DNA from: Deltaproteobacteria bacterium
GTDB lineage: Bacteria; Desulfobacterota; DSM-4660; Desulfatiglandales; HGW-15
Reading direction: 5' to 3'
Length of the DNA stretch: 35,970 nucleotides
NCBI GenBank assembly: GCA_016930835.1
Contig: JAFGGA010000150.1
Span: 1 to 35,970, forward strand
Position numbers and translations under genes: made by a program. How positions within the stretch are numbered: position 1 is the stretch's first letter; each line of letters starts with the position of its first letter. Below, piece by piece: positions 41-35,956 of the stretch. The notes below the pieces were generated by a model. That model made no database searches and was not told the DNA's origin. It saw nothing but the letters and a program-made list of their open reading frames with translations.

Positions 41-490
41 ATGAAAATAATTGGCATTGATCATATCGCAATAAGGGTGAAATATTTAAAGAAAGCAATA
101 GATTTTTTTGAGGATCTATTTGATACAAAATTTCATGAACTTGGGGAAGTCCCGGCTTTGGATATCATAAGCTATATCGATCCAATCGGCTTGGAACTAG
201 TCTCTCCCCTGCTTCCGGATGGCCCGACTCGCCGAGTACTTGACCGCCGTGGAGAAGGAATGACGGTGCTTTCTCTTAAGGTTGACGATCTGGACAAGGC
301 AGTGGCTGAGATGGAGGCAAAGGGCGTGCGCATGACCCATCGTGGAAGGAATGGGGATCTCGAAGGCGCGGTCTTTCATCCGTCGGATACCTTCGGTGTC
401 CTTTTTGAGCTGGTAGAGTATAAAAAAGAAGAACATCCAATTCGAACCACTATCAAAAAGAACGTTGGAAGACCGCTTTTGGATCAATAA
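41..490 (+). CDS. VOC-fold protein, methylmalonyl-CoA epimerase-like
   Basis: A 149-residue glyoxalase/VOC-fold protein. The N-terminus (IDHIAIRV, His8) and C-terminus (LFELVEY, Glu123) match the first and last metal-ligand strands of methylmalonyl-CoA epimerase. The second-module strand that normally carries a His pair reads GEGMTVLSLKV, so one ligand appears to be missing. A strong ribosome site (AAAGGAGAT) precedes the ATG. It is the first gene of a + strand catabolic cluster and is followed by a second VOC gene. A role in epimerising or isomerising a CoA ester is inferred from family and context only. The substrate is unknown, and with an incomplete metal site it may be a divergent enzyme or a binding protein. 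Confidence 0.85.
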   Translation: MKIIGIDHIAIRVKYLKKAIDFFEDLFDTKFHELGEVPALDIISYIDPIGLELVSPLLPDGPTRRVLDRRGEGMTVLSLKVDDLDKAVAEMEAKGVRMTHRGRNGDLEGAVFHPSDTFGVLFELVEYKKEEHPIRTTIKKNVGRPLLDQ

Positions 491-688: not shown

Positions 689-1165
689 ATGTTTGTTGAG
701 AAAATTGAGAGGATTTCAATAGCTGTAAAAGATCTGGACAAGTCGATCCAATTTTTCTCCGATCTGCTGGGAATACACTTTGATGAGACCTTTGTGGTTG
801 AGCAAAGTGGCGCGAGGGAAGCCATAAGTTCCTTCGGGCTTGAACTCGTAGAGGGTAAACCGGGTACCTGGGTGCATGATTTTATCCAAAAAAAAGGAGA
901 GGGTGTCTTTTCGCTCATGATCAAAGTAAGCGATATGGAAAAGGCCAAAAAGGTTTTCAAGGACAAAGGAGTGCGATTAACGGGCGAAATCAATAGCATT
1001 ACTGAACCGGGGGGGCCGGGGTTGAGGGAAGTTTCATATCATCCCAAGGACACGCATGGCGTGATGATATTTCTCACCGAGTACACAGAGAAACATCCCG
1101 CGACTATTGCCGCCTTGGAAAGACGTGAGGATACCGTCTTTTCAAGTGTTCGAGACAAAAAGTAA
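689..1165 (+). CDS. VOC-fold protein, degenerate metal site
   Basis: A 158-residue paralogue of the first VOC protein with the same two-module layout and the same closing pattern (HPKDTHGV, TEYTEKHP). The N-terminal His is replaced by Arg8 (KIERISIAV), and the C-terminal Glu position is Phe128 (MIFLTEY). The middle strand reads GEGVFSLMIKV with no His. All recognisable metal ligands of the epimerase family are therefore absent. It could be a non-catalytic partner of the first VOC protein, a metal-independent enzyme, or a substrate-binding protein. The ribosome site is GTGAGGGAT before the ATG. The next gene starts 9 nt after its stop, so the two are probably co-transcribed. Confidence 0.8.
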   Translation: MFVEKIERISIAVKDLDKSIQFFSDLLGIHFDETFVVEQSGAREAISSFGLELVEGKPGTWVHDFIQKKGEGVFSLMIKVSDMEKAKKVFKDKGVRLTGEINSITEPGGPGLREVSYHPKDTHGVMIFLTEYTEKHPATIAALERREDTVFSSVRDKK

Positions 1166-1173
1166 CTCAAATA

Positions 1174-1764
1174 TTGGCACCTGATGTGAAGAGGATGAGA
1201 TCAGAGCAAGTTGAATATGCACTGGCCTTACCCATGCCTTCCATGGGTAGAACCAGTCTTGATGACCTGGCCAGAAAAATGGGAAGAGAGCCCTCTTTGG
1301 TTGAAGAAAGGATCGAGGAGATGGCCGGGCAAAGATTGATCATGGCCACCAAGAGCAGAAAAGACGGTCTCGTACATTTGACGGGAAATGCGCAGCAAGG
1401 CCCCGCCGTGATTTGCAACTGCTGTTCCTGCTGCTGTAATGCCCTTCGAGGTCTCATCGAACTCCATAATCCTCGATCTTTTGTTAAAACCAATTTTTTG
1501 CCTCAATTCGACCACGATAAATGTAGGCTTTGCTCTACTTGCAAAAATATTTGTCCGATGGATGCCATTTCAATGCTCCCCGGCGTGGAAGCTGACGGAA
1601 CAGGCGCATTCATGAGGGTTGAGGAAACTCGATGCATAGGCTGCGGTTTATGCGCATCACATTGTCCTCACAACGCTGTCAGCATGGTAAAGGCATATAA
1701 TAATATCCCTGCCCAAACGCTTGCTGAATGCAACGAACGATATATGAATGGAAGACTTTGGTAA
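1174..1764 (+). CDS. Winged-helix/2x[4Fe-4S] ferredoxin with Cys-rich motif
   Basis: A 196-residue soluble protein. Residues ~20-70 look like a winged-helix module (SLDDLARKMGREPSLVEERI followed by a basic wing). Next comes the unusual motif CNCCSCCC, then two standard ferredoxin motifs, CRLCSTCKNICP and CIGCGLCASHCP, each expected to bind one [4Fe-4S] cluster. The start given is TTG at 1174. Neither it nor the in-frame ATG at 1195 has a good ribosome site, and translation may be coupled to the upstream gene. It lies 28 nt before the 4-hydroxybutyryl-CoA dehydratase-like flavoprotein. Electron delivery to that flavoprotein is a reasonable inference but is not shown by sequence. Confidence 0.85.
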   Translation: MAPDVKRMRSEQVEYALALPMPSMGRTSLDDLARKMGREPSLVEERIEEMAGQRLIMATKSRKDGLVHLTGNAQQGPAVICNCCSCCCNALRGLIELHNPRSFVKTNFLPQFDHDKCRLCSTCKNICPMDAISMLPGVEADGTGAFMRVEETRCIGCGLCASHCPHNAVSMVKAYNNIPAQTLAECNERYMNGRLW

Positions 1765-1792: not shown

Positions 1793-3226
1793 ATGGGATT
1801 AATTACTGCAGAAAAATATAAAGAAAGCCTGGCGGATGGCCGCGTTATCTATTACAAAGGAGAAAAGGTGGAAAATGTGGCAACTCATCCTGATCTCAGT
1901 GTCTGTGTAGATGTGATGGCTCTGGATTATCAAATGGCGGAGGCGCCTGAAACCAGAGATCTGGCAGTTGCGAAAGATCCGGAAACCGGAGATGAAATGA
2001 GCCGTTACTATTACAAACCTCAAAATGCTGAAGATCTTTTGAAGGCCTATGAACTGATAGTGAAAGCGACTGAACTTGGTGATGGAATCATCCCTCTTGC
2101 CAAGGACATTGGCGCGGATGCACTCAATGCCATTAATATCACTGCAAATATAATGGGCAATAAGGATTTCGTGGAGCGCATCAACAACTACCGCAAATTT
2201 TTGCAGGAAAAAGACCTGGCTACTTGCGCGGCTGTTACCTGTGTCAAGGGAGACCGTGTACTGAGGCCCTCTGACCCGAGGCAAGCCAACCCCGACTTCT
2301 ATGTGCGGGTAGTGGATAGAAACAAGGAAGGGATTATTGTTCGAGGGGCCAAGATCCACATTACCGGTGCAGCCTATGCCAATGAGATGTTTGTGATCCC
2401 TTGCCGGGCCATGAGCGAGGCAGACAAAGACTATGCTGTTTCTTTTGCGATTCCCATCAATACCAAGGGCGTTACTCAGGTTTGCAGGCCGTTTCAATCT
2501 CAATACAGCTCACTAGAATTTCCTGTTGATCGCCCTGTCAGAACACATACGGATTCTTTTGTTATTTTTGATGACGTGTTTGTTCCATGGGAACGAGTTT
2601 TTTTGTGTGGAGAATGGAATCATGCTGCCACGATGGTATATAATTTCGCTGTCATGCATAGACGTACCGGTTGTGCTTACCGTATTCCATTGACCGAACA
2701 GATTGTGGGCGCTGCTGTCGCCATAGCTGAATACAACGGCGTCGCTGGAGTCTCTCATGTGAAGGACAAGCTGACAAATATCATCATTTATTTGGAAACA
2801 CTCAAATCATTGGCAAAGACAGCCTGTTATGACTTTGTGATTCGTGGGGACATAGCCGTTCCCGACCCGATTGCGACGAATATGGCCAAATATCACTTTG
2901 CTCATAAATACCATGACGTCATCAGGGATCTCCAGGATATAGCCGGAGGACTTCTTGTGACGGCTCCCACCTACAAGGATTACCAGATTCCCAAGATTCA
3001 TGACGCCATGGATAAATACCTGGTCGGGAAAAAGGGTATCTCCGCGGAAAATCGCCTCCGCATTCTGGATTTCATCAGAAGGCTCGCAAAGACTGAACGT
3101 GAGACGATCGTTTTACACGGAGAAGGCTCCCCCATGGCTGAACGGATGACGATTCTCATGGAAGCGCAGCCAGTGCTCAAAAATTGCCAAAAGCTTGTAG
3201 AAAAACTCGCGGGGATCGAGAGATAG
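1793..3226 (+). CDS. 4-hydroxybutyryl-CoA dehydratase / HpaB-family flavoprotein lacking two cluster ligands
   Basis: A 477-residue member of the 4-hydroxyphenylacetate 3-hydroxylase/4-hydroxybutyryl-CoA dehydratase (AbfD) family, an acyl-CoA dehydrogenase-like FAD fold. Family features seen are ITGAAYANE (191-198), DDVFVPWERVF (260-270) and MHRRTGCAYR (288-297). AbfD of Clostridium aminobutyricum binds [4Fe-4S] through Cys99, Cys103, His292 and Cys299. Here the segment equivalent to the Cys pair reads PLAKDIGADALNA (~101-113) with no Cys. His289 and Cys294 remain but are two residues closer together than in AbfD. A standard AbfD cluster is therefore unlikely, and the reaction may differ (hydroxylation, dehydration or isomerisation of a CoA ester). 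The ribosome site AAAGGAGAT precedes the ATG. The adjacent ferredoxin could be a redox partner. Confidence 0.85.
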   Translation: MGLITAEKYKESLADGRVIYYKGEKVENVATHPDLSVCVDVMALDYQMAEAPETRDLAVAKDPETGDEMSRYYYKPQNAEDLLKAYELIVKATELGDGIIPLAKDIGADALNAINITANIMGNKDFVERINNYRKFLQEKDLATCAAVTCVKGDRVLRPSDPRQANPDFYVRVVDRNKEGIIVRGAKIHITGAAYANEMFVIPCRAMSEADKDYAVSFAIPINTKGVTQVCRPFQSQYSSLEFPVDRPVRTHTDSFVIFDDVFVPWERVFLCGEWNHAATMVYNFAVMHRRTGCAYRIPLTEQIVGAAVAIAEYNGVAGVSHVKDKLTNIIIYLETLKSLAKTACYDFVIRGDIAVPDPIATNMAKYHFAHKYHDVIRDLQDIAGGLLVTAPTYKDYQIPKIHDAMDKYLVGKKGISAENRLRILDFIRRLAKTERETIVLHGEGSPMAERMTILMEAQPVLKNCQKLVEKLAGIER

Positions 3227-3256
3227 AGAGATTTTTTGGAAAAGGAGATGATGAGT

Positions 3257-4021
3257 ATGAATTGTTCTTTTCTTTCTTTAAAAGGAAAAGTCGCCCTGGT
3301 CACCGGGGGAAGTCGTGGGATAGGAGAAGCGATTGCGCTTACTTTTGCGGATGCCGGGGCCGACATAGCCATATCAAGCCGAAAAATACAGGATCTGGAA
3401 AAGGTAGCCGCCAAGATAGAGGGGATGGGGAGGAAGGCCTTAGCCGTATCCGCCCATGCCCGCAAACCCGAGGACCTGAAAAGCCTTGTGGAGCAAGTTA
3501 TGGAGAATTTTGGCCGCATTGATGTCCTGGTTAATAATTCAGGGACCAATCCGGCAATGGCGCCCCTCATAGATACGGAAAATGACCTTTTCGATCAGAT
3601 TATCGAGACGAATCTAAGAGGATATTTCATCATGTGTAAGCTGGTCGGAAAAATTATGAAGGGGCAGGAAACCGGTCATATCATCAATATCTCCTCTGCT
3701 GGAGGGGTGTCTCCTTCAAAAGGACTGGCGGCATACTGCATGAGCAAGGCGGGAATAAACATGCTGACCAAACAGGCGGCACTGGAGCTGGGGCCTTACA
3801 ATGTTCGCGTAAATGCCATTGCTCCGCGTTTCGTGAAAACGAGTTTCAGTAAGGCCTTATGGACAAATCCCGAGCTGATGGAAAAGGAAACCCAGTTCAC
3901 CCCGCTGAAGTGCGTTGCCACGCCCGATGAGATAGCGCAAGCGGCACTTTTTCTTGCCTCAAATGCCGTAAATTATATGACGGGACACATATTGGTCATG
4001 AATGGAGGGGCCTTTTTCTGA
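3257..4021 (+). CDS. SDR-family oxidoreductase (3-hydroxyacyl dehydrogenase/ketoreductase type)
   Basis: A classical short-chain dehydrogenase/reductase of 254 residues from the chosen start. It has the cofactor motif TGGSRGIG (16-23), VNNSG in place of the usual NNAG, a catalytic Ser near 146-147, and YCMSK with Tyr160 and Lys164. The reading frame extends to a TTG at 3236, but GGAG at 3244-3247 sits correctly for ATG 3257, and that start gives the usual family length. It follows the dehydratase-like gene by 30 nt and precedes two hot-dog hydratase genes. NAD(P)-linked oxidation or reduction of a 3-hydroxy/3-oxoacyl-CoA is the likely role. FabG-like acyl-ACP reduction is possible but less expected in this context. 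Confidence 0.88.
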   Translation: MNCSFLSLKGKVALVTGGSRGIGEAIALTFADAGADIAISSRKIQDLEKVAAKIEGMGRKALAVSAHARKPEDLKSLVEQVMENFGRIDVLVNNSGTNPAMAPLIDTENDLFDQIIETNLRGYFIMCKLVGKIMKGQETGHIINISSAGGVSPSKGLAAYCMSKAGINMLTKQAALELGPYNVRVNAIAPRFVKTSFSKALWTNPELMEKETQFTPLKCVATPDEIAQAALFLASNAVNYMTGHILVMNGGAFF

Positions 4022-4209: not shown

Positions 4210-4695
4210 ATGAACAGTCAAAAAAAATATACCCTGGAACAATTGAACAGCCTGATCGGACAAGAGATAAAAGTAGGGTATCCCACTCGGATCGAGGTGG
4301 AGAAAGGGGCGGTAAAAAATTTTGCGGAGGCCATTCGGTATGCGCATCCGCTTTATGTGAATGAGGCGTATGCCAGATCCAAAGGGTATCGTAGTGTCAT
4401 TGCACCACCCACTTTCGCGGCCTATGACTATCAAAGGGGTGATGCCGTACGTTCTGTTCCTTTGCCCTTTGAGTGGAGCGGTCTTCATGGCGGGGACGAG
4501 TGGAAATTTATTAAAGACATTCAAGCAGGGGATGTGCTGACTCCTACTGTAAAACTTGCTGACATATCATTGAAGGAGGGCAAGAAAGGACAAATATTTT
4601 TGCTCAAGGTTGAAATCACATATACGAATCAAGATAACGAGATCGTAGCGATATATCGATCGACAACAATAGTGATGCCGAAGGAGGGCCAGTAA
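4210..4695 (+). CDS. MaoC-like (FAS1-type) hot-dog dehydratase, subunit A
   Basis: A 161-residue hot-dog protein of the FAS1-type N-terminal dehydratase family, the family of mycobacterial HadA/HadC. The pattern HPLYVNEAYARSKGYRSVIA-PPTF is the family hallmark. It lacks the Asp/His catalytic pair of (R)-specific hydratases, as expected for the structural partner of a heterodimer. AAGGA lies 10 nt before the ATG. It is followed by a catalytic-type MaoC gene 3 nt downstream. Together the pair probably catalyses reversible hydration of an enoyl-CoA. Chain length and stereochemistry cannot be read from sequence. Confidence 0.82.
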   Translation: MNSQKKYTLEQLNSLIGQEIKVGYPTRIEVEKGAVKNFAEAIRYAHPLYVNEAYARSKGYRSVIAPPTFAAYDYQRGDAVRSVPLPFEWSGLHGGDEWKFIKDIQAGDVLTPTVKLADISLKEGKKGQIFLLKVEITYTNQDNEIVAIYRSTTIVMPKEGQ

Positions 4696-4698
4696 TTC

Positions 4699-5142
4699 TT
4701 GGAAAATACAGCTTCGCGAATGAAATTGAGGTTTGATGATATCGTGGTAGGAGCAGAAATACCCGCCCTAGTGCAAGAGAAGATAACCACCCAAATGCTT
4801 GTAGAATGGGCAGCCGCGGTTAGAGATTTTTTTCCTGTTCATTATGACCAGAACGTTGCGGAAAAAATGGGTTTTCCAACGGTGATTGTTCATGGGCCTT
4901 TGAAATGTGCGCTTTTAGCTCGCCTCATGGTACAATGGATTGGAGAGGAAGGAACGCTGCTGGAGCTTACTTGCGAACATAGGAAAAGTAATTTGGTGGA
5001 AGAAACTCTGATATGCAAGGGTAAAGTGAGCGATAAATTCGAAGAGAAGGGTTGCGGTTATATAAGAGCGGAAATTTGGGTAGAAAACGATAAAGGTTCG
5101 AAATCCGCTATAGGCTCATCCTTAGTTTCTCTGCCTCTGTAA
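4699..5142 (+). CDS. MaoC-like hydratase/dehydratase, catalytic subunit B
   Basis: A 147-residue MaoC-domain protein. RDFFPVHYD, followed by GFPTVIVHGP, corresponds to the (R)-hydratase motif with the catalytic Asp and His present. The TTG start at 4699 has AAGGAGGG 10 nt upstream, inside the end of subunit A. An alternative in-frame ATG at 4720 has no ribosome site. The tight spacing suggests a heterodimer with subunit A, as in HadAB. In this cluster it would hydrate or dehydrate the CoA ester handled by the neighbouring SDR and flavoprotein. Confidence 0.83.
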   Translation: MENTASRMKLRFDDIVVGAEIPALVQEKITTQMLVEWAAAVRDFFPVHYDQNVAEKMGFPTVIVHGPLKCALLARLMVQWIGEEGTLLELTCEHRKSNLVEETLICKGKVSDKFEEKGCGYIRAEIWVENDKGSKSAIGSSLVSLPL

Positions 5143-5294: not shown

Positions 5295-5948
5295 ATGGAA
5301 CCAGCGATTGAAACCTACTGGCAAAAAAGATTGTCCGACGTTCAAAAAGCATTGGAGAAGAATAACTTTGAAGTATTTTTGGCCGTGGATGCCGCGGAAG
5401 CGAAAGAAATCGTAAAGGAGAAGATACTTCCTCAGTGTAACGCAAAAACCATATCCTGGGGAGGTTCTCTGACTTTCGGGGCCACAGGGCTTTATGGAGC
5501 ACTAAAAGAAAATGCTGATCTGGAAATCCTGGACCCCTTTAATCGGAAAGTTTCCCCTGAAAAGATTCAGGAAATGCGAAAAAGGGCTATGGTAGCCGAT
5601 CTATTCATAACCGGCAGCAACTCAGTCACCACAGACGGAAAGCTTGTTAATCTAGATATGGTGGGGAACAGGGTTACGGGTATTACTTATGGTCCTAAAA
5701 ATGTCGTCATCCTGGTAGGAAGAAATAAGATCGTAAAGGACCTTGATGCAGCCATGTGGCGGATAAAAAATTTTGTAGCGCCGGTAAATGCAATGAGACT
5801 GAATAAGAAAACTCCATGCGTGAAGACTTCTTATTGTGGAGATTGTGCGAGTCCGGACCGTATCTGTAATACGTGGGTTATCACTGAGAAATCATTTCCA
5901 AAGGGAAGAGTGAAGGTCGTTTTGATAAATCAGAGCTTGGGTCTCTAG
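5295..5948 (+). CDS. LUD-domain protein (LutC/YkgG-like)
   Basis: A 217-residue LUD (lactate utilisation, DUF162) protein. It has the family segments ISWGGSLTFGATGL, VADLFITGSNSVT, GKLVNLDMVGNRV and GPKNVVILVGRNKI, and a C-terminal Cys group (CVKTSYCGDCASPDRICN). LUD proteins such as LutC partner with iron-sulfur subunits in L-lactate oxidation, but stand-alone members are common in anaerobes and their function is unknown. It lies 152 nt after the MaoC pair with no clear ribosome site before the ATG, so its place in the same operon is uncertain. Confidence 0.85.
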   Translation: MEPAIETYWQKRLSDVQKALEKNNFEVFLAVDAAEAKEIVKEKILPQCNAKTISWGGSLTFGATGLYGALKENADLEILDPFNRKVSPEKIQEMRKRAMVADLFITGSNSVTTDGKLVNLDMVGNRVTGITYGPKNVVILVGRNKIVKDLDAAMWRIKNFVAPVNAMRLNKKTPCVKTSYCGDCASPDRICNTWVITEKSFPKGRVKVVLINQSLGL

Positions 5949-24553: not shown

Positions 24554-25825
24554 ATGAAAACAAAAATTATTTCTATGGTTGTCTGTCTTTTGGTGGCATT
24601 TTTAATGATGGTCCCCTGCAGCCAGATATCAGCTGAGGAACCCATTGTTATCGGTGCTCCATTGTCTTTGGCTTATCTTTACGGTTGGGATGCTGAAAGA
24701 GGCATGACCCTGGCCATTGAGGAAATCAACGCCCAGGGCGGAGTTAAAGTGGGTGGTGTCAAACGGCCATTTCGGGCAGAGGTCATTGATACACGTGATT
24801 TAGAGCCGGGGGTACCTGTCAGTGAAGCCCTTTTGGCCGTAGAAAAATTGATCTTGGATAAAAAGGCCGATTTTATCGTGGGTGGCCCGGTTCGCTCCGA
24901 GGCGGCCTTGGCGGCCATGTCCCTTTTATCCAAATATAAAAAGATCTCTATTCTGACCACCGGTGTGTTAACACCCGCCTATCATGCTGCCGTTGCAAAA
25001 GAGTATGACAAATTCAAATACTGTTTCCGTATCCATGGTGAAGCGGGGAATCTGGTGGGAGAGATGTTCGCCAATTTTAAGGAATTGAGGGATGCGTACG
25101 GGTTTAATAATCTGTTTATCATTGCCCAGGATGTCTCCCATGCGCGAGGTGCGGCGGAGGTCATGAAAAAGGTGGCTGGAAGCCAGAAATGGAATGTGAC
25201 GGGTCTCGAGATCTATCCTACTGGTGCCAGCGATTTTTCAATGGGTCTGCTCAAGGCCAAAAGGACTCAATCGCAAATTATTAACATCTGGATGGATATG
25301 CCGGAAAGCGCCATTTTGTTAAAACAATGGTATGAGATGAAACTCCCCGCCTTGCCATTTGGTAGTACGCTTGCCGCCGCGGAACAACCTGGCTTCTGGA
25401 AGGCCACTGAGGGCAAAGGGGAATACACACTTTGCAATGTCGTTAATGCCGGTAACGCGCCCAGTGAGGCCACACCCTGGACCATGAAATTTTATGATGC
25501 TTACACAAAACGGTGGAATGTAGAACCGGAGGGTCTGGGTACTTCCAGCAGCTATATGGCTGTCTACGTATTGCGGGACGCCATTGAACGCGCCGGAACC
25601 CTTAACTCGGATCAAGTGGTAAATGAGCTGGAAAAAACGGATCTAGAAAGTGTTTACGGTCGACTTCGTTTTGATCCGAAAAACCACCAGGTCATCCCGG
25701 CCAATGATCCGAAAGAAGGCGCCGTGGGAAGCATTTTACAGTGGCAAGCGGGAAAACGGGTCGTGGTCTATCCGAAAAGCATTGCCAAGGGCAGCATTAA
25801 ACTCCCGCCCTGGATGAATAAGTAA
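24554..25825 (+). CDS. ABC transporter substrate-binding protein (branched-chain amino acid type)
   Basis: A 423-residue periplasmic binding protein of the LivJ/LivK (type I) fold. The signal peptide spans ~1-27 with likely cleavage after SQISA. The mature N-terminus (EEPIVIGAPLSLA) and GGVKVGGVKRPFRAEVIDT are typical of the family. A strong ribosome site, AAAGGAGGG, precedes the ATG. Family members bind amino acids, amides, aromatic acids and other carboxylates. The acyl-CoA ligase in the same operon suggests an organic acid ligand rather than an amino acid (inference). Confidence 0.92.
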   Translation: MKTKIISMVVCLLVAFLMMVPCSQISAEEPIVIGAPLSLAYLYGWDAERGMTLAIEEINAQGGVKVGGVKRPFRAEVIDTRDLEPGVPVSEALLAVEKLILDKKADFIVGGPVRSEAALAAMSLLSKYKKISILTTGVLTPAYHAAVAKEYDKFKYCFRIHGEAGNLVGEMFANFKELRDAYGFNNLFIIAQDVSHARGAAEVMKKVAGSQKWNVTGLEIYPTGASDFSMGLLKAKRTQSQIINIWMDMPESAILLKQWYEMKLPALPFGSTLAAAEQPGFWKATEGKGEYTLCNVVNAGNAPSEATPWTMKFYDAYTKRWNVEPEGLGTSSSYMAVYVLRDAIERAGTLNSDQVVNELEKTDLESVYGRLRFDPKNHQVIPANDPKEGAVGSILQWQAGKRVVVYPKSIAKGSIKLPPWMNK

Positions 25826-26212
25826 GTCAGCAGGCGCATGGCGCAGGGCATAAGGCTTATAAAAATAAAATCTCATTACCAAAAGCCTTATGTCTTAAGC
25901 CTTCCACCTCGCTTGTGGGGAAACGAGCTAATAAATAATCGATCACAATTCGCGATCTGTAAAAACTAATCAACCAGGTTTATGAATACAAAGGCCTATT
26001 TGTAAAAACTGGATTCCGGTTTTCAAGGCTGAGTCGTAATTCGTCATTCCGGCCAATCCCCGTGAAATGGGGTGCGAGCCGGAATCCAAAAATTATTACA
26101 CGCGACCCAGGTTTAAAAAAAATAGAATATCAAATTGATAGATAAAATAACTTAAATTTTAAAATCACAATTTTTACTCCCATAAAAATCACTCTTCAAA
26201 TCAGGAAAGACA
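25826..26212. other. Intra-operon gap between binding protein and permease genes
   Basis: A 387-nt gap with no gene seen. It holds CATAAGGCTT (25849-25858) paired with AAGCCTTATG (25883-25892), a 10-bp inverted repeat with a 24-nt loop, then the complex repeat at 26009-26087. The hairpins may protect or cut the mRNA and so raise the level of binding protein over permease (inference from position). Confidence 0.6.
26009..26087. repeat. Palindromic intergenic repeat (copy 4 of 5, composite)
   Basis: CTGGATTCCGG (26009-26019), CGTCATTCCGG (26042-26052) and CCGGAATCC (26079-26087). The last arm can pair with either of the first two, and an inner stem, CCCC-GTGAAAT-GGGG, is present. It looks like one full repeat plus a half copy. 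Confidence 0.75.
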
Positions 26213-27079
26213 ATGGATATCTTTATCTATGGCACGATTAACAGTGCCGCATTGGCACTCATGGCCTTAGGGTTTGCCCTGGTTTACGGCATCAGTCGCA
26301 TTCCGAATTTTGCCCACGGTGCTCTTTATGTCATCACAGGTTTTGTCACGTGGATCTGTCTACGATCTTTTCATCTCAATTATTTTCTCAGCATCCTACT
26401 GGCCATGATCATCACCGGCGTCATTGGCGCACTAATATATCAGTTCATATTGATACGTGTAAGAGGGATGTCCATCTCTGAAATTATCGCCTCTTACGCG
26501 ATCGGATTGGCCATATTGGAAGGTTTCAGATGGGGCGGATTTAAAGGAATGACCTACACACTTCCGGCTTTCGCTGACGGAACCATTATGATAGAAGGCA
26601 TTCCGGTAGATATGCAGCGCCTGTTTGTCGTAATCATCGGCGCTGCTGTCGTGGCCTTTCTTTGGGCCTTCACGCATTTTACTCGTCTCGGTCTGGCCCT
26701 TCGAGGCATGGCCCAAGATGAGCGGGCCGCCTTAATGCTGGGTATTGATTCGGATCGAATGGCGGTCGTGGCCATGGCCTTGGGAGCCATGCTTTCAGGG
26801 TTGGCGGCCATTGTTCTGTTACCTTTAGGGAATATCGTGGTCGAAAAAGGGTACGACGTCCTCATCCAGGCCATAGCCGTCTGTATCGTAGGTGGCCTGG
26901 GTAGCTGGATGGGCGCTGTGTTGGCCGCATTTATCATAGGATTCGCCCAGATTTTCACGGTGGTTTATTTAGGTGCCCACTTTCAAATGGTGGTCGCTTT
27001 ATTGGCCATTATCCTAACCCTTATTATAAGACCATCAGGCCTGTTCGGCAGGCAAAAAGAACTGGAAGAGAGGGTGTAG
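26213..27079 (+). CDS. ABC transporter permease, LivH type
   Basis: A 288-residue inner-membrane protein with ~8 hydrophobic segments. Hallmarks are ALALMALGFALVYGISRIPNFAHG at the N-terminus (the LivH pattern), a cytoplasmic ATPase-contact loop (TRLGLALRGMAQDERAALML) and GGLGSWMGAVLAA. It forms the translocation channel with the LivM-type partner 6 nt downstream. The ribosome site is AGGAAAG before the ATG. Confidence 0.93.
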   Translation: MDIFIYGTINSAALALMALGFALVYGISRIPNFAHGALYVITGFVTWICLRSFHLNYFLSILLAMIITGVIGALIYQFILIRVRGMSISEIIASYAIGLAILEGFRWGGFKGMTYTLPAFADGTIMIEGIPVDMQRLFVVIIGAAVVAFLWAFTHFTRLGLALRGMAQDERAALMLGIDSDRMAVVAMALGAMLSGLAAIVLLPLGNIVVEKGYDVLIQAIAVCIVGGLGSWMGAVLAAFIIGFAQIFTVVYLGAHFQMVVALLAIILTLIIRPSGLFGRQKELEERV

Positions 27080-27085
27080 TCTAAC

Positions 27086-28093
27086 ATGGAACAACGTCGC
27101 AAGGAAAGGCTGGATCGGGGTATTAAGGTCCGTTCGGACGGACTCTACGCCCTCATGTCCTGGAGGGAATTATCTTACCTGACACTACCCCGATTGGTTC
27201 TTATTATCGGAATGCTCATGCTGCCTTTTTTGATGCCTAATAGTTATTGGCAGCGGGTCATCTCCATAGTGTGTCTTTATGCACTTCTCGCCCTCAGTTT
27301 CGATTTTCTGGCACACTTTTTGGGTCTGGTTTCCCTCGGAGGGGCTTTCTTCATTGGTGTGGGAGGCTATCTCTCTGCCATTATGAATACCTCCCTCGGG
27401 CTCCCCCCCTTCATGGCCATCCCTCTGGCGACCCTTCTGGGGGCGGGGATTTGCACCCTTTTTCTGCTGCCATGCCTTCCCCTTCGAGGGGTCTATTTCG
27501 CGATCGTCACGCTGATGTACCCCCTTGCACTGGCAAGAGTGATTGAAGCCATGGATCTATTCGGTGGGACGGATGGGGTTCTGGGCGTGGATAGTTTTCC
27601 CAATCCCTGGGTGGAACAATATTTCGTCATCGCCATGGTTTTCCTTTTCATGTTCGGTACACGGCGGTTGGTCAATACAGATCTGGGACTCGTGCTCAGG
27701 GCGGTCAAGGACAATGATCAAGCCGTAAAGGCCTCGGGGATGAGCATCACATATTACAAGGCAATCGCCGTATTCATCGCATCCGCCATGGGTTGCTTGA
27801 GCGGTGCCTGTCTCGTGCATATCTATATGTGGGCGGGGATCTCGCTTTTTGCCTTGGACTTTTCCATACTCCCCATCGCCGCCACGGTTATTGGCGGCGG
27901 CGGGACTTTGGTGGGTCCGGTGTTGGGATGTTTTATCCTGGTCCCTATCTCCGAACTGCTCCGGGAATTCGGCACCCTTCGTATTGTTTTTTATTCATTG
28001 GTGCTGATGGCCTTTATTGTCTTTCGCAGCGAAGGCATTATGGTGTACGGGGAGCGAAAATACCATCAATTTGAAAGGTGGGTGAAGGTATGA
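27086..28093 (+). CDS. ABC transporter permease, LivM type
   Basis: A 335-residue inner-membrane protein with ~10 hydrophobic segments. LivM features are YALLALSFDFLAHFLGLVSLGG, FAIVTLMYPLALARV, GTDGVLGV and the ATPase-contact loop (TDLGLVLRAVKDNDQAVKAS). Its stop codon overlaps the ATPase start (ATGA), showing translational coupling. Second half of the transport channel. Confidence 0.93.
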   Translation: MEQRRKERLDRGIKVRSDGLYALMSWRELSYLTLPRLVLIIGMLMLPFLMPNSYWQRVISIVCLYALLALSFDFLAHFLGLVSLGGAFFIGVGGYLSAIMNTSLGLPPFMAIPLATLLGAGICTLFLLPCLPLRGVYFAIVTLMYPLALARVIEAMDLFGGTDGVLGVDSFPNPWVEQYFVIAMVFLFMFGTRRLVNTDLGLVLRAVKDNDQAVKASGMSITYYKAIAVFIASAMGCLSGACLVHIYMWAGISLFALDFSILPIAATVIGGGGTLVGPVLGCFILVPISELLREFGTLRIVFYSLVLMAFIVFRSEGIMVYGERKYHQFERWVKV

Positions 28094-28881
28094 AAAACGA
28101 CCAGGCGATCCTGAGAATCGATCATATCACCAAGGCCTTTGGGGGTATCTTGGCCCTCAATAGCGTGAGTTTTGATGTTCGCAAAGGCGAGATATTGGGT
28201 ATCATAGGACCGAACGGTTCTGGGAAAACCACCATTGTGAATTGTATTACGGGTTTTATTAAAATGACGTCAGGAAAGGTCTTTTTTCACGGAAGGGATA
28301 TCAGTGGTAAGCCGGCCCATAAGATCGCGGATATGGGTATTACACGGACCTTTCAAATTATGCGACCCTATTACAGCCTGCCTGCCTATAAAAACCTGGT
28401 GATCCCATTGTTCTCTCCTCGAGCGAAACGCACCGGCGGATGGAGAGGTGGCGGTCAACTTGGGGATCGTAATACCGTGGGGATCGATATCCTTGAAGAG
28501 ATCGGATTCGAACGGGATTCCTATGTTCCCTATAAAGCGGCCTCCACACTGCCTACCGGGTATTTGAAACGCCTCGAGCTCGCCAGGTGCCTGGCCCTCA
28601 AGCCGGAAATCATTCTCTGTGATGAGGTCTTTTCAGGCCTGAGCATGAGCGAAATCGCCAGTATGGTCCCCCTGATTGAACGTCTCCAAATGGATGGGAT
28701 CACCGTTATTATGATCGAGCACCGGCTCCGGGAACTCTTCCGGGTGGCCAATCGTGTAATGGTCATGAACTTCGGCGAAAAGCTTACGGAAGGAACGCCG
28801 GATGAAGTCATGGCGGATGAAAAGGTCAAAGAGGCCTATTTCGGTTCGGAAGAAGTGGAGGAGGTTATGACCTATGCTTAA
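28090..28881 (+). CDS. ABC transporter ATPase, LivG type, atypical signature
   Basis: A 263-residue ATPase from ATG 28090, which overlaps the LivM stop as ATGA (a GTG at 28078 is less likely). It has Walker A GPNGSGKT, Walker B IILCDE followed by Val where Pro is usual, and the H-loop IEHR. The ABC signature reads LPTGYLKRLELAR instead of LSYGQQRRLEIAR, so the Gln and first Ser of LSGGQ are replaced. Similar DEV-type variants exist in amide/urea-like LivG proteins, so it may still be active. It couples ATP hydrolysis to import together with the LivF-type partner. Confidence 0.9.
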   Translation: MKNDQAILRIDHITKAFGGILALNSVSFDVRKGEILGIIGPNGSGKTTIVNCITGFIKMTSGKVFFHGRDISGKPAHKIADMGITRTFQIMRPYYSLPAYKNLVIPLFSPRAKRTGGWRGGGQLGDRNTVGIDILEEIGFERDSYVPYKAASTLPTGYLKRLELARCLALKPEIILCDEVFSGLSMSEIASMVPLIERLQMDGITVIMIEHRLRELFRVANRVMVMNFGEKLTEGTPDEVMADEKVKEAYFGSEEVEEVMTYA

Positions 28882-29629
28882 GGCCACGGACCTGATGGTG
28901 TTTTATGAGAATATGCTGGCGCTTAATAATATCAGCATCACATGTGCCGACAAACAAATCATCGGCGTATTCGGGGCCAATAGCGCCGGCAAATCCACAC
29001 TTATGTATACCCTGTCCGGCATTATGGATGATATCCAAAAGAAGGAGGGGATGGCGGGCGGGGAAAGGATCACGGTTCTTGGGCGGATCCAGTATCTGGA
29101 ACGGGATATCACGGATCTCAAGCCGAGTATCCGGGCAAAGCGAGGAATGGTCTTATGCCCGGAAAGGCGCAGGATATTCAACGAAAGCAGTGTGATGGAA
29201 AACCTACGGATCGGGGGTTATCTCGCCACAAAGAAACAGTCCAAAGAGACACTTGATTACATCTTTGAATTATTTCCGCCTCTTCAAAAACTGAAAAAAC
29301 GGATCGGCGGGTTTTTAAGCGGCGGGGAACAGCAGATGTTGGCCATTGGCCGAGCACTCATGGCTCAACCGAAATTGCTCCTATTGGATGAACCGCTGAT
29401 GGGTCTGAGCCCCTTGATCCAATCTATCCTGGTTCGTGCCACCAGGAAGATCAGAGATAAAAGGGGTATTTCGATCATTGTGACCGAGCAATATGCACGA
29501 CCTGTCCTGCCGATTGTCGATTATGCTTATATCTTGGAAAATGGCGCCGCCGTACTCGAGGGCCCCCATGATGAAATATTAAACAATCCCGATGTACGTT
29601 CCGCATATTTCGGGGTGTCTGAGGAATAA
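28874..29629 (+). CDS. ABC transporter ATPase, LivF type
   Basis: A 251-residue ATPase overlapping the LivG-type gene by 8 nt. It has Walker A GANSAGKST (Ser in place of the usual Gly before Ala), signature LSGGEQQ and Walker B LLLLDEP. It has an extra ~15 residues (KKEGMAGGERITVL) between Walker A and the DIT segment compared with typical LivF. The switch position is reported as TEQYAR, where LivF proteins usually have EQN/EQ. It partners the LivG-type subunit. Confidence 0.92.
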   Translation: MLKATDLMVFYENMLALNNISITCADKQIIGVFGANSAGKSTLMYTLSGIMDDIQKKEGMAGGERITVLGRIQYLERDITDLKPSIRAKRGMVLCPERRRIFNESSVMENLRIGGYLATKKQSKETLDYIFELFPPLQKLKKRIGGFLSGGEQQMLAIGRALMAQPKLLLLDEPLMGLSPLIQSILVRATRKIRDKRGISIIVTEQYARPVLPIVDYAYILENGAAVLEGPHDEILNNPDVRSAYFGVSEE

Positions 29630-29634
29630 TAGGG

Positions 29635-31299
29635 ATGAAAATTTCATGTGATGAATTGGAGAAAGAACTTACATTTACTCGATTTGACCGAATGTGCGAA
29701 CGATTCCCGGAAAAGACCGCCATCATCTTTCTGGGAACACGGTTCTCCTATGCCCATTTAAAAGAATTAAGTGAAAGATTCGCCGGCGCCCTTCTGGGTT
29801 TGGGGGTTCATAAAGGTGACCGGGTGATGGTCTATATCTCCAATTCGATACAATGGGTCATCTCTTTTCTGGCTATCCAAAAAATGGGGGCCGTGCTGGT
29901 ACCGGTCTCTCCCATATATACCTCCTTTGAAATCGAATACATGATCAATGATTCCGGTGCTGAAACCATTATCTGCCTGGATACGAATTTCTGCTATGTC
30001 AAGGAGGTGTTTTTAAAAACCGGCCTTAAAAGGGCCATCGTGACCAATCTTGTGGACCTGCTTCCATTCTGGAAACGGTGGATGGGCATGATGTTTGATA
30101 AGATTCCCACAGGAAATGTGGATCGCGATAACCGGGTCTATTCCTTTAAATCACTCTTAAGACATCCCCCTTTAACCCGATCACCTGACATCGACCCATG
30201 GAGGGATCTCTCCTATATCCTGTATACAGGGGGAACCACCGGTTTCCCCAAAGGCGTGCCCGGCAATCATATCGGGATGACCTCCTACATAAATGATGTG
30301 ACGGAAGATGTGGCGGGCAATCACCTTAAGGAGGGCGAGGACGTCTACATCGCCGTCAATCCTTTGTTTCATATTATGGCCCTCGGGCTTTTCATGGCCG
30401 TTGGGCTGAATAAGGGAAATACCACCCTGTTGATGCCTGTTCCCCAGGTGGACGCCATTCTGGAAACCATTGAACAATATAAAGCGAGATGGATCTTGGG
30501 CGTACCCGCCCTTTATCGCATGATCTTGGAAAATGACCGTCTGGATCAATATGATATCAGTTCATTGCTTTATTGCTATTGCGGTGGTGACGTGCTCCCT
30601 GTTGAAGTTTTTAATCGCTGGAAAAGCTATTGGGGGAATCCCATATATCAGGTATACGGTTCAACCGAGGCCGGACATGTCACCTACAGCAGGATTGATG
30701 GGAATCCAAAGCCGACCACCATTGGTGCCCCCCTTATGAGTCGGGAATGCATGGTTGTTGATCCGGACACCCTCGCCCCTGTTCCATTTGGCCAAAGCGG
30801 TGAACTATTGGTGACATCGCCCTATACCATCAAGGAGTACTGGAACAAGCCTGAGGAAACAAGCCAATCATATGTGGAGATCAACGGCAAAATCTTTTAC
30901 CGTATGAGTGATTTTGTGAGTCAAGATGCCGACGGCCAACTTGTCTATATGGAACGATCCGCTGACATCATCAAGCACAAGGGATATCGGGTCTCGGCTT
31001 CCGAGGTGGAGGCCGTGCTACAGAATCATCCCACGGTCATCGGTGCTTGTGTGGTGGGGATTCCGGACAAAAAGGTCGGCGAACGGATCAAGGCGATTGT
31101 GGTATTGAAAGAAGACGCCAGAGGTGTAAGCGGAGCCGATTTAATTAAGTGGTGCCGGGAAAGGCTCGCGTCTTATAAAGTCCCAGGATATATTGAATTC
31201 AGGGATATGCTCCCGAAATCCAAGGTCGGGAAGCTGCTTCGAAGAGAAATCCGGGATGAAGAGCGGAGACGGATGTCCAAGCAAAAAAGGGCATCTTAA
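29635..31299 (+). CDS. Acyl-CoA synthetase (AMP-forming)
   Basis: A 554-residue member of the ANL superfamily. It has the P-loop-like motif YTGGTTGFPKG (~197-207), YGSTEAGH (~340-347), the hinge region GYRVSASEVE (~449-458) and the catalytic-lysine segment SKVGKLLRRE (~530). It activates a carboxylic acid with ATP to an acyl-AMP and then an acyl-CoA. It starts 5 nt after the ABC ATPase, so it is expected to activate the imported compound. The chain type (fatty, aromatic or branched) is not resolvable. A few hydrophobic segments hint at membrane association. Confidence 0.92.
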   Translation: MKISCDELEKELTFTRFDRMCERFPEKTAIIFLGTRFSYAHLKELSERFAGALLGLGVHKGDRVMVYISNSIQWVISFLAIQKMGAVLVPVSPIYTSFEIEYMINDSGAETIICLDTNFCYVKEVFLKTGLKRAIVTNLVDLLPFWKRWMGMMFDKIPTGNVDRDNRVYSFKSLLRHPPLTRSPDIDPWRDLSYILYTGGTTGFPKGVPGNHIGMTSYINDVTEDVAGNHLKEGEDVYIAVNPLFHIMALGLFMAVGLNKGNTTLLMPVPQVDAILETIEQYKARWILGVPALYRMILENDRLDQYDISSLLYCYCGGDVLPVEVFNRWKSYWGNPIYQVYGSTEAGHVTYSRIDGNPKPTTIGAPLMSRECMVVDPDTLAPVPFGQSGELLVTSPYTIKEYWNKPEETSQSYVEINGKIFYRMSDFVSQDADGQLVYMERSADIIKHKGYRVSASEVEAVLQNHPTVIGACVVGIPDKKVGERIKAIVVLKEDARGVSGADLIKWCRERLASYKVPGYIEFRDMLPKSKVGKLLRREIRDEERRRMSKQKRAS

Positions 31300-34856: not shown

Positions 34857-34899
34857 TACTGAGTGCCATAATTAATTGCGCATAAATAAAAAATGTGTT

Positions 34900-35421
34900 A
34901 TGATGCTTTTCATGAAAGCATCTAAAATAACAGATACGGAAAATGTCATTTTCATCCTCCACGATGAAATACGTCGGACAGATGAGGCACGCTATGACCA
35001 TAGACTCCATGCTATACTTCTTGTTGCCCAAGGCATGAGTAGCAGACAAGCTGCTCAATACCTTGGGGATTCACCAAGGACTGTAGCATACTGGGTTCAA
35101 AGGTTCGAATCTGAAGGTCTTGCCGGACTTGCTGATGCGGATCGACCTGGAAGACCTACAAAGTTAAATCAGAAACAGGTAAACAAAATAGAGAGTGCTT
35201 TGCGTAATTCACCTTTGGATTATGGATTATCCGTCAATTTATGGGACGGTAAAACATTATCTACTTTCATCCAACAGGAATTTGGAATCCAATTAGGTGT
35301 ACGCCAATGTCAACGTATATTCCGACAATTAGGGTTTCGGCTTAGGAAATCACGTTCGAAGATAGCTAATTCTGACCCCTCCAAAAAAGAGGACTTTAAA
35401 AAAAATTCTCAAACTCATTAA
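34900..35421 (+). CDS. IS630 transposase, N-terminal DNA-binding part (OrfA)
   Basis: About 174 residues from ATG 34900 (34903 and 34912 are equally possible). It has a helix-turn-helix of IS630 type (AILLVAQGMSSRQAAQYLG, TVAYWVQRFESEGLAGLAD), the DRPGRP linker and a second winged-helix part (LSTFIQQEFGIQLGVRQCQRIFRQLG). The frame ends at 35421, just after the A8 tract at 35398-35405. Without a frame change the catalytic domain is not made. Confidence 0.85.
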   Translation: MMLFMKASKITDTENVIFILHDEIRRTDEARYDHRLHAILLVAQGMSSRQAAQYLGDSPRTVAYWVQRFESEGLAGLADADRPGRPTKLNQKQVNKIESALRNSPLDYGLSVNLWDGKTLSTFIQQEFGIQLGVRQCQRIFRQLGFRLRKSRSKIANSDPSKKEDFKKNSQTH

Positions 35422-35956
35422 GGATGATAAATACGATATTTGGTCACTTGATGAAGTTCATTTTCAACAATATGGTTCCCGTTGTCGTATGTGGATACCA
35501 CCTGAAATCAAAGAACCTATTCTATTACATCATCCTACACGTGCCAGCGTTGGCTATTATGGAGCAGTAAGGCTTCGTGATGGTAAATTTGTATATAAAC
35601 CTGAATGGGAGAAATTTGATGGTGAAACATTTTTTTCCTTTCTTAAATATTTAAGAAGGATGAGCTCTCATTCAGGACGCAAAGTAATTATTATAAGTGA
35701 CAACGCCCGATATCACCACGCCAAACTACATAAAACTTGGCGTGAAAAGTGTTCGAAAAGATTCGAGTTAATGTTTTTACCTCCATATAGCCCGGAATTA
35801 AATCCTATTGAACGTGTCTGGAAACTTACACGAAGGATGGCCGTTCATAATAGATATTTCCCTTCTTTACAAAGTGTTGTGGAGGCTGTTGAGTCGGTAT
35901 TTAATATTTGGGCTTCTGGTAATAATATATTGATTAAATTATGCGCAATTATATAA
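35399..35956 (+). pseudogene. IS630 transposase, DDE catalytic part (OrfB frame)
   Basis: The frame offset by +1 (equivalently -2) from OrfA. From the A8 tract it reads KKILKLIKDDKYDIWSLDEV (first catalytic Asp at 35450-35452), then VIIISDNARYHHA (second Asp) and PPYSPELNPIERVW (Glu). All three DDE residues are present. The only ATG (35489) lies after the first Asp, so independent translation would give a non-catalytic protein. A single-base change, or transcriptional slippage on A8, would be needed to join it to OrfA. Confidence 0.8.

Follow-up and report, generated by a model that had tools for sequence, protein, structure and literature searches.

The HpaB/AbfD superfamily of flavoproteins contains two characterised branches. 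In 4-hydroxybutyryl-CoA dehydratase (AbfD), Cys99, Cys103, His292 and Cys299 are the ligands of a [4Fe-4S] cluster and are needed for this cluster and for radical dehydration, and Glu455 and Tyr296 are catalytic residues. In the HpaB-type oxygenases, the functional residues correspond to Arg100, Tyr104 and His142 of the Thermus thermophilus enzyme. Msed_1220 of Metallosphaera sedula, which we set beside our protein by its description, may lack the cluster residues. It is listed as a second 4HBD candidate and AbfD homologue with neither an activity value nor up-regulation (PMC7078158, Table 1), and AbfD homologues with an unclear role occur in Archaeoglobus (PMC9802188). Our literature search returned no paper on the cluster-free clade described below, and no activity, cofactor or substrate on record for any member found. 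Two leads were discarded: the Sulfobacillus acidophilus HpaB, considered as a characterised clade member, is 53% identical to Thermus HpaB and belongs to the HpaB clade (PMC6375179), and the flavoproteins in the anaerobic benzene papers, considered as a source of homologues, are of other families (VAO/PCMH or GlcDEF-like).

We analysed a stretch of 35,970 nucleotides (hereafter the window) from a deltaproteobacterial genome, which encodes a 477-residue flavoprotein of this superfamily on the plus strand (1793..3226). The ORF begins with ATG, with AAAAGGAGATATAAAT just upstream and a strong ribosome-binding site, AAAAGGAGATATAAATATG. The protein passes the Pfam models HpaB_N (PF11794; 268.8 bits for a cut-off of 35) and HpaB (PF03241; 161.5 bits for a cut-off of 25). 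Its top solved relatives are AbfD from Clostridium aminobutyricum (1u8v; E 1.1e-69) and the N. maritimus enzyme (6vjr; E 1.5e-68), followed by Thermus HpaB (2yyg; E 3.2e-45); in the family alignment it is 32.5% identical to each of the two AbfD structures and 30.6% to the Thermus protein. Scores stay below the cut-off for the best NCBIfam match, HpaB-1 (TIGR02309; 206.7 vs 480.2), for TIGR02310 (126.1 vs 885.2) and for the Pfam ACAD middle domain (PF02770; 23.4 vs 33.3 bits). The comparison with AbfD and HpaB structures proposed in a preliminary description of this DNA returned an AbfD-like fold: an AlphaFold2 model built from a 55-sequence alignment (pLDDT 95.0, pTM 0.90) superposes, using VIA-align, on 1u8v over 429 residues at 2.4 Å (Z 42.6) and on 6vjr over 426 residues at 2.5 Å (Z 42.7), with Z of 37-39 for HpaB-type oxygenases (T. 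thermophilus 2YYG, E. coli 6EB0, HadA and TftD), and Foldseek agrees. Acyl-CoA dehydrogenases share the core fold (Z about 20) and the beta-oxidation context, but their identity in the structural alignment is 12-17% and the flavoprotein is longer. Note that residues 435-477, including Glu444, lie outside the well-superposed part of the model. Membership in the HpaB/AbfD superfamily and the fold are well supported.

The cysteine pair equivalent to Cys99 and Cys103 of AbfD had been described as absent, and this is borne out: the matching segment reads IIPLAKDIGADALNA, and the alignment places Ile99 at the position of Cys99 and Asp105 at that of Cys103. The preliminary description had also taken His289 and Cys294 for the remaining AbfD pair, brought two residues closer together. 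Its first half stands, His289 aligning with His292, but the alignment, which is ungapped over this stretch, sets Cys294 against Gly297 of AbfD and Tyr296 against Cys299; the apparent shortening by two residues arose because the wrong residues were paired. Since Cys299 falls on Tyr296, three of the four ligands are replaced, not two, and only His289 is kept. Tyr296 and Glu455 of AbfD, for their part, correspond to Gly and Ile. The ligand set is missing from every close relative examined, and a search for a conserved cysteine among 39 non-redundant clade members found none. Cys145, Cys150 and Cys294 are poorly kept (5/39, 4/39 and 6/39, respectively), which rules them out as substitute ligands; conservation of residues such as the first two in the cluster site had been named as one observation that would overturn the preliminary reading. 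Judged by these alignments, the protein very probably has no [4Fe-4S] cluster site.

An alignment of cluster-free sequences, used as query against 84,980 species genomes, yielded 80 loci, from whose number relative frequency is not inferable given such seeding. They include Desulfobacterota, Chloroflexota, Bacillota, Myxococcota, Binatota, Latescibacterota and Poribacteria and, among archaea, Lokiarchaeota and Thermoplasmatota; some clade members come from lineages that include aerobes, and a search for viral relatives confirmed none. At nearly all 80 loci, the His is the only one of the four ligands to be kept, Tyr occupies the position of Cys299 and an H[AG]EGS motif is present. In a maximum-likelihood tree of 70 sequences (supports as UFBoot/SH-aLRT), the HpaB oxygenases (100/99), the four-ligand or AbfD sequences (100/99) and the cluster-free sequences (97/88) form three clades, with the flavoprotein excluded from the second and placed in the third. 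The split is unchanged when ligand and catalytic columns are removed (SH-aLRT: cluster-free clade 91, four-ligand clade 99). The 39 members had been grouped by the Tyr at the Cys299 site and the His, and the same 39 were recovered together with a Cys103-only group in the tree built without those columns. Rooted on four HpaB sequences, the cluster-free clade is sister to the AbfD clade and not nested in it. On this phylogeny, the cluster-free group is in all likelihood a distinct, ancient clade.

The protein had been presented as a homologue that lost its cysteine pair. The absence is real, but a loss is doubtful, the clade lying outside the cluster-bearing one; the cysteines are missing from HpaB as well, so it is just as parsimonious that the AbfD branch acquired the cluster. 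The suggestions that the protein works without a cluster and that it carries out a different reaction within the family both gain support at the level of sequence, as no cysteine is conserved in the clade, Glu455 and Tyr296 of AbfD are gone and the clade stands apart in the tree.

Within the cluster-free clade, one subclade has a single one of the cluster cysteines, at the Cys103 site, and carries Lys or Arg followed by Met at the Cys299 site (L011, L129, L131, L133, L135, L141, L142, L146, L150, L153, L155 and L160); L011, L129, L135, L150 and L160 form a nested subclade in the tree.

The cluster-free clade conserves polar residues of its own. Tyr296, Glu444 and Tyr333 are present in 39/39 members, His374 and Asp15 in 38/39, and Asp45 in most, whereas the AbfD clade has Cys at the site of Tyr296, Ala or Gly at that of Glu444 (Ala460 in AbfD), variable residues at that of Tyr333 and mostly Tyr or Phe at that of His374. 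The Cys103 site is occupied by Asp or Glu in 32/39 members and by Ala or Phe in some. His289 and Arg290 are common to the cluster-free and AbfD clades (His292 and Arg293 in AbfD), HpaB having no counterpart of His289. The FAD-region motifs are kept as in AbfD, and R155, G180, G185 and K187 are common to AbfD and mostly to HpaB too. Arg100, Tyr104 and His142 of T. thermophilus HpaB correspond to Lys104, Ala110 and Ala146; Tyr104 and His142 are missing from both the cluster-free and AbfD clades, and Arg100 is mostly Lys in the former.

The gene order around the flavoprotein is VOC, VOC, dicluster ferredoxin, flavoprotein, SDR, FAS1_DH, MaoC, LUD and MFS. Both VOC proteins, the first of VOC/glyoxalase fold (41..490, plus strand) and the second also VOC-fold (689..1165, plus strand), are methylmalonyl-CoA-epimerase-like but score well below the model cut-off (57.1 and 59.3 bits, respectively, vs 114.95). 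Downstream on the plus strand, the short-chain dehydrogenase/reductase (SDR; 3236..4021) is a conserved neighbour, with orthologues 51-73% identical at the nine closest loci. A FAS1_DH/HadA-like hotdog hydratase subunit (4210..4695) follows in the same direction, possibly in the same operon, and its gene was not found at other flavoprotein loci; a MaoC-like hydratase subunit (4699..5142) begins 3 bp after it, and a LUD-domain protein (5295..5948) is an uncertain member of the transcription unit, both again on the plus strand. Farther along the window, 24554-31299 encodes a branched-chain-type ABC transporter (binding protein, two permeases and two ATPases) and then an AMP-binding acyl-CoA ligase, a set that resembles those beside homologues at L036, L037 and L094. 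At 34876-35956, two consecutive ORFs (HTH_32/HTH_29 and DDE_3) represent an insertion-sequence transposase split over two frames, IS630-like by its domains.

We compared the neighbourhoods of 75 loci, the window included. Among genes no more than two positions away from that of the flavoprotein, 26/259 encode an SDR, vs 7/358 among those beyond five (Fisher p 1.4e-5, the loci being related and not independent). In the nearest relatives, a gene for an Amino_oxidase/phytoene-desaturase-like FAD protein lies upstream (at -1 in 6 loci), thiolases, a ChsH2-type OB protein, MaoC, an acyl-CoA dehydrogenase and a FadJ-like protein are encoded downstream, and genes for an acyl-CoA ligase and a branched-chain-type ABC transporter are nearby.

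The dicluster [4Fe-4S] protein (1174..1764, plus strand) carries CRLCSTCKNICP and CIGCGLCASHCP plus a CNCCSCCC stretch; this stretch and an N-terminal part accompany what is a short form compared with related proteins, mostly of 345-420 aa. A gap of 28 bp separates its gene from that of the flavoprotein downstream, and the two are probably co-transcribed in the window. No clear orthologue was found in the genomes that encode 72-73% identical flavoprotein homologues, where the best matches are 30-45% identical and mostly parts of longer Fe-S proteins, and a same-strand dicluster ORF within 4 kb of the flavoprotein gene is present in the window and at only 2/74 other loci. The suggestion that electrons come from the adjacent ferredoxin finds no support in this pattern, and a conserved ferredoxin partner is rejected; of the proposed joint conservation, the absence of the cysteines is indeed clade-wide, but the ferredoxin gene is not kept with it. 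The neighbouring ferredoxin probably stands outside the conserved mechanism, though it may have a local partnership with the flavoprotein in the window.

The genome of the window encodes five HpaB/AbfD family members, two of them without the ligands: the window copy and one on contig C137 (48% identical). This paralogue (L035, C137:32412-33839) is 77-85% identical to copies in other Deltaproteobacteria and a Spirochaete, and its type usually has no conserved operon. The C202 copy keeps all four ligands together with Glu257, Tyr296 and Glu455 of AbfD, so that the canonical AbfD role is already filled in this host. The C193 and C127 copies also have the ligands, with differences elsewhere in the active site. 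The C193 copy (L002) belongs to a four-ligand group (with L049, L050, L016, L017, L018, L020, L052, L054 and L023) that has Cys at Glu257 (Ser in L002), His at Tyr296 and Ser at Glu455 and that, from these substitutions, probably has another chemistry with the cluster kept. A second four-ligand group (L030, L031, L064, L065, L068 and others) has Tyr at Gln101, Thr at Glu257, Cys at Tyr296 and Gly at Glu455. The genome also contains dsrA (569.5 bits) and three Flavin_Reduct genes, all away from the flavoprotein locus, and a search for the haem-copper oxidase COX1 found none in it. By gene content, the host would be an anaerobic sulfate reducer, and dsrA together with the taxa of the nearest homologues suggests a Desulfobacterota-like organism; with dsrA present and COX1 not found, an O2-using oxygenase is unlikely.

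We consider it reasonably probable that the flavoprotein belongs to a third, deep clade of the superfamily, which has no cluster site, performs neither the radical chemistry of AbfD nor the O2 chemistry of HpaB, and relies on His/Tyr/Glu acid-base catalysis and a two-electron flavin reaction. The balance tips slightly in favour of flavin chemistry that needs no O2, is of a two-electron or acid-base kind and acts on a CoA-linked substrate. FAD would bind in the pocket that AbfD and HpaB share. The protein would work in a catabolic pathway resembling beta-oxidation, on a CoA thioester or a comparable derivative of an acid. Beside the flavin, His289 and Glu444 would serve as general acid/base together with Tyr296, forming a proton-transfer set. 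The flavin step may be a two-electron one, either acyl dehydrogenation or a double-bond shift, as in acyl-CoA dehydrogenases or in the vinylacetyl-CoA isomerase step of AbfD, and the product would pass to the linked SDR.

Four other readings were weighed against these data. An O2-dependent two-component monooxygenase like HpaB, hydroxylating a phenol with reduced FAD from a separate reductase, would agree with the shared fold, with the lack of cluster cysteines in HpaB itself and with HpaB-1 as the top NCBIfam match; we regard it as unlikely, however, as this match is far from its cut-off, Tyr104 and His142 are missing and Arg100 is mostly Lys, the clade is separate from HpaB, HpaC-type reductase homologues occur at 2/75 loci and are adjacent to the flavoprotein gene at neither, and the host has dsrA and no COX1. 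Catalysis as a radical dehydratase of AbfD type, with a cluster on other cysteines or electrons from the adjacent ferredoxin, is highly unlikely in a clade without any conserved cysteine, lacking Glu455 and Tyr296, whose relatives do not keep the ferredoxin and whose host already has a canonical AbfD gene, even though the nearest solved relatives are AbfD enzymes, His292 is kept and the ferredoxin gene is so close.

The near-invariance of the His, Tyr and Glu, and the Asp or Glu that most members have at the Cys103 site, could also reflect a single metal ion held in the former cluster pocket by His289, Tyr296, Glu444 and that residue, but Ala or Phe takes its place in some members and we know of no citable precedent for such an ion in this fold, which makes this reading very unlikely. 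Finally, the protein lacks the catalytic residues known from either characterised branch, as would be expected of a degenerate member with a structural or regulatory role and no catalysis; yet it is full-length and 72-73% identical to homologues in other genera, and the strong conservation of clade-specific polar residues and the operon context leave little room for this explanation, the least probable of the four.

Whether the clade represents a third catalytic type of the HpaB/AbfD fold, namely an O2-independent, cluster-free flavoenzyme with a His/Tyr/Glu set at the place of the cluster, which serves anaerobic catabolism in many phyla by acting on CoA-linked intermediates, is in our estimate evenly poised. 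The 4-hydroxybutyrate branches of CO2 fixation are usually recognised by AbfD as their marker, and homologues of unclear role already raise doubts in this use (PMC9802188). A large cluster-free sister clade more than 30% identical to AbfD is an obvious source of wrong AbfD calls; the two could be told apart by Tyr in place of Cys299 together with the H[AG]EGS motif. One fold with three branches, using O2, a radical cluster or neither, would also help to define the contribution of the cluster; one question is whether the isomerase half-reaction may proceed without it.
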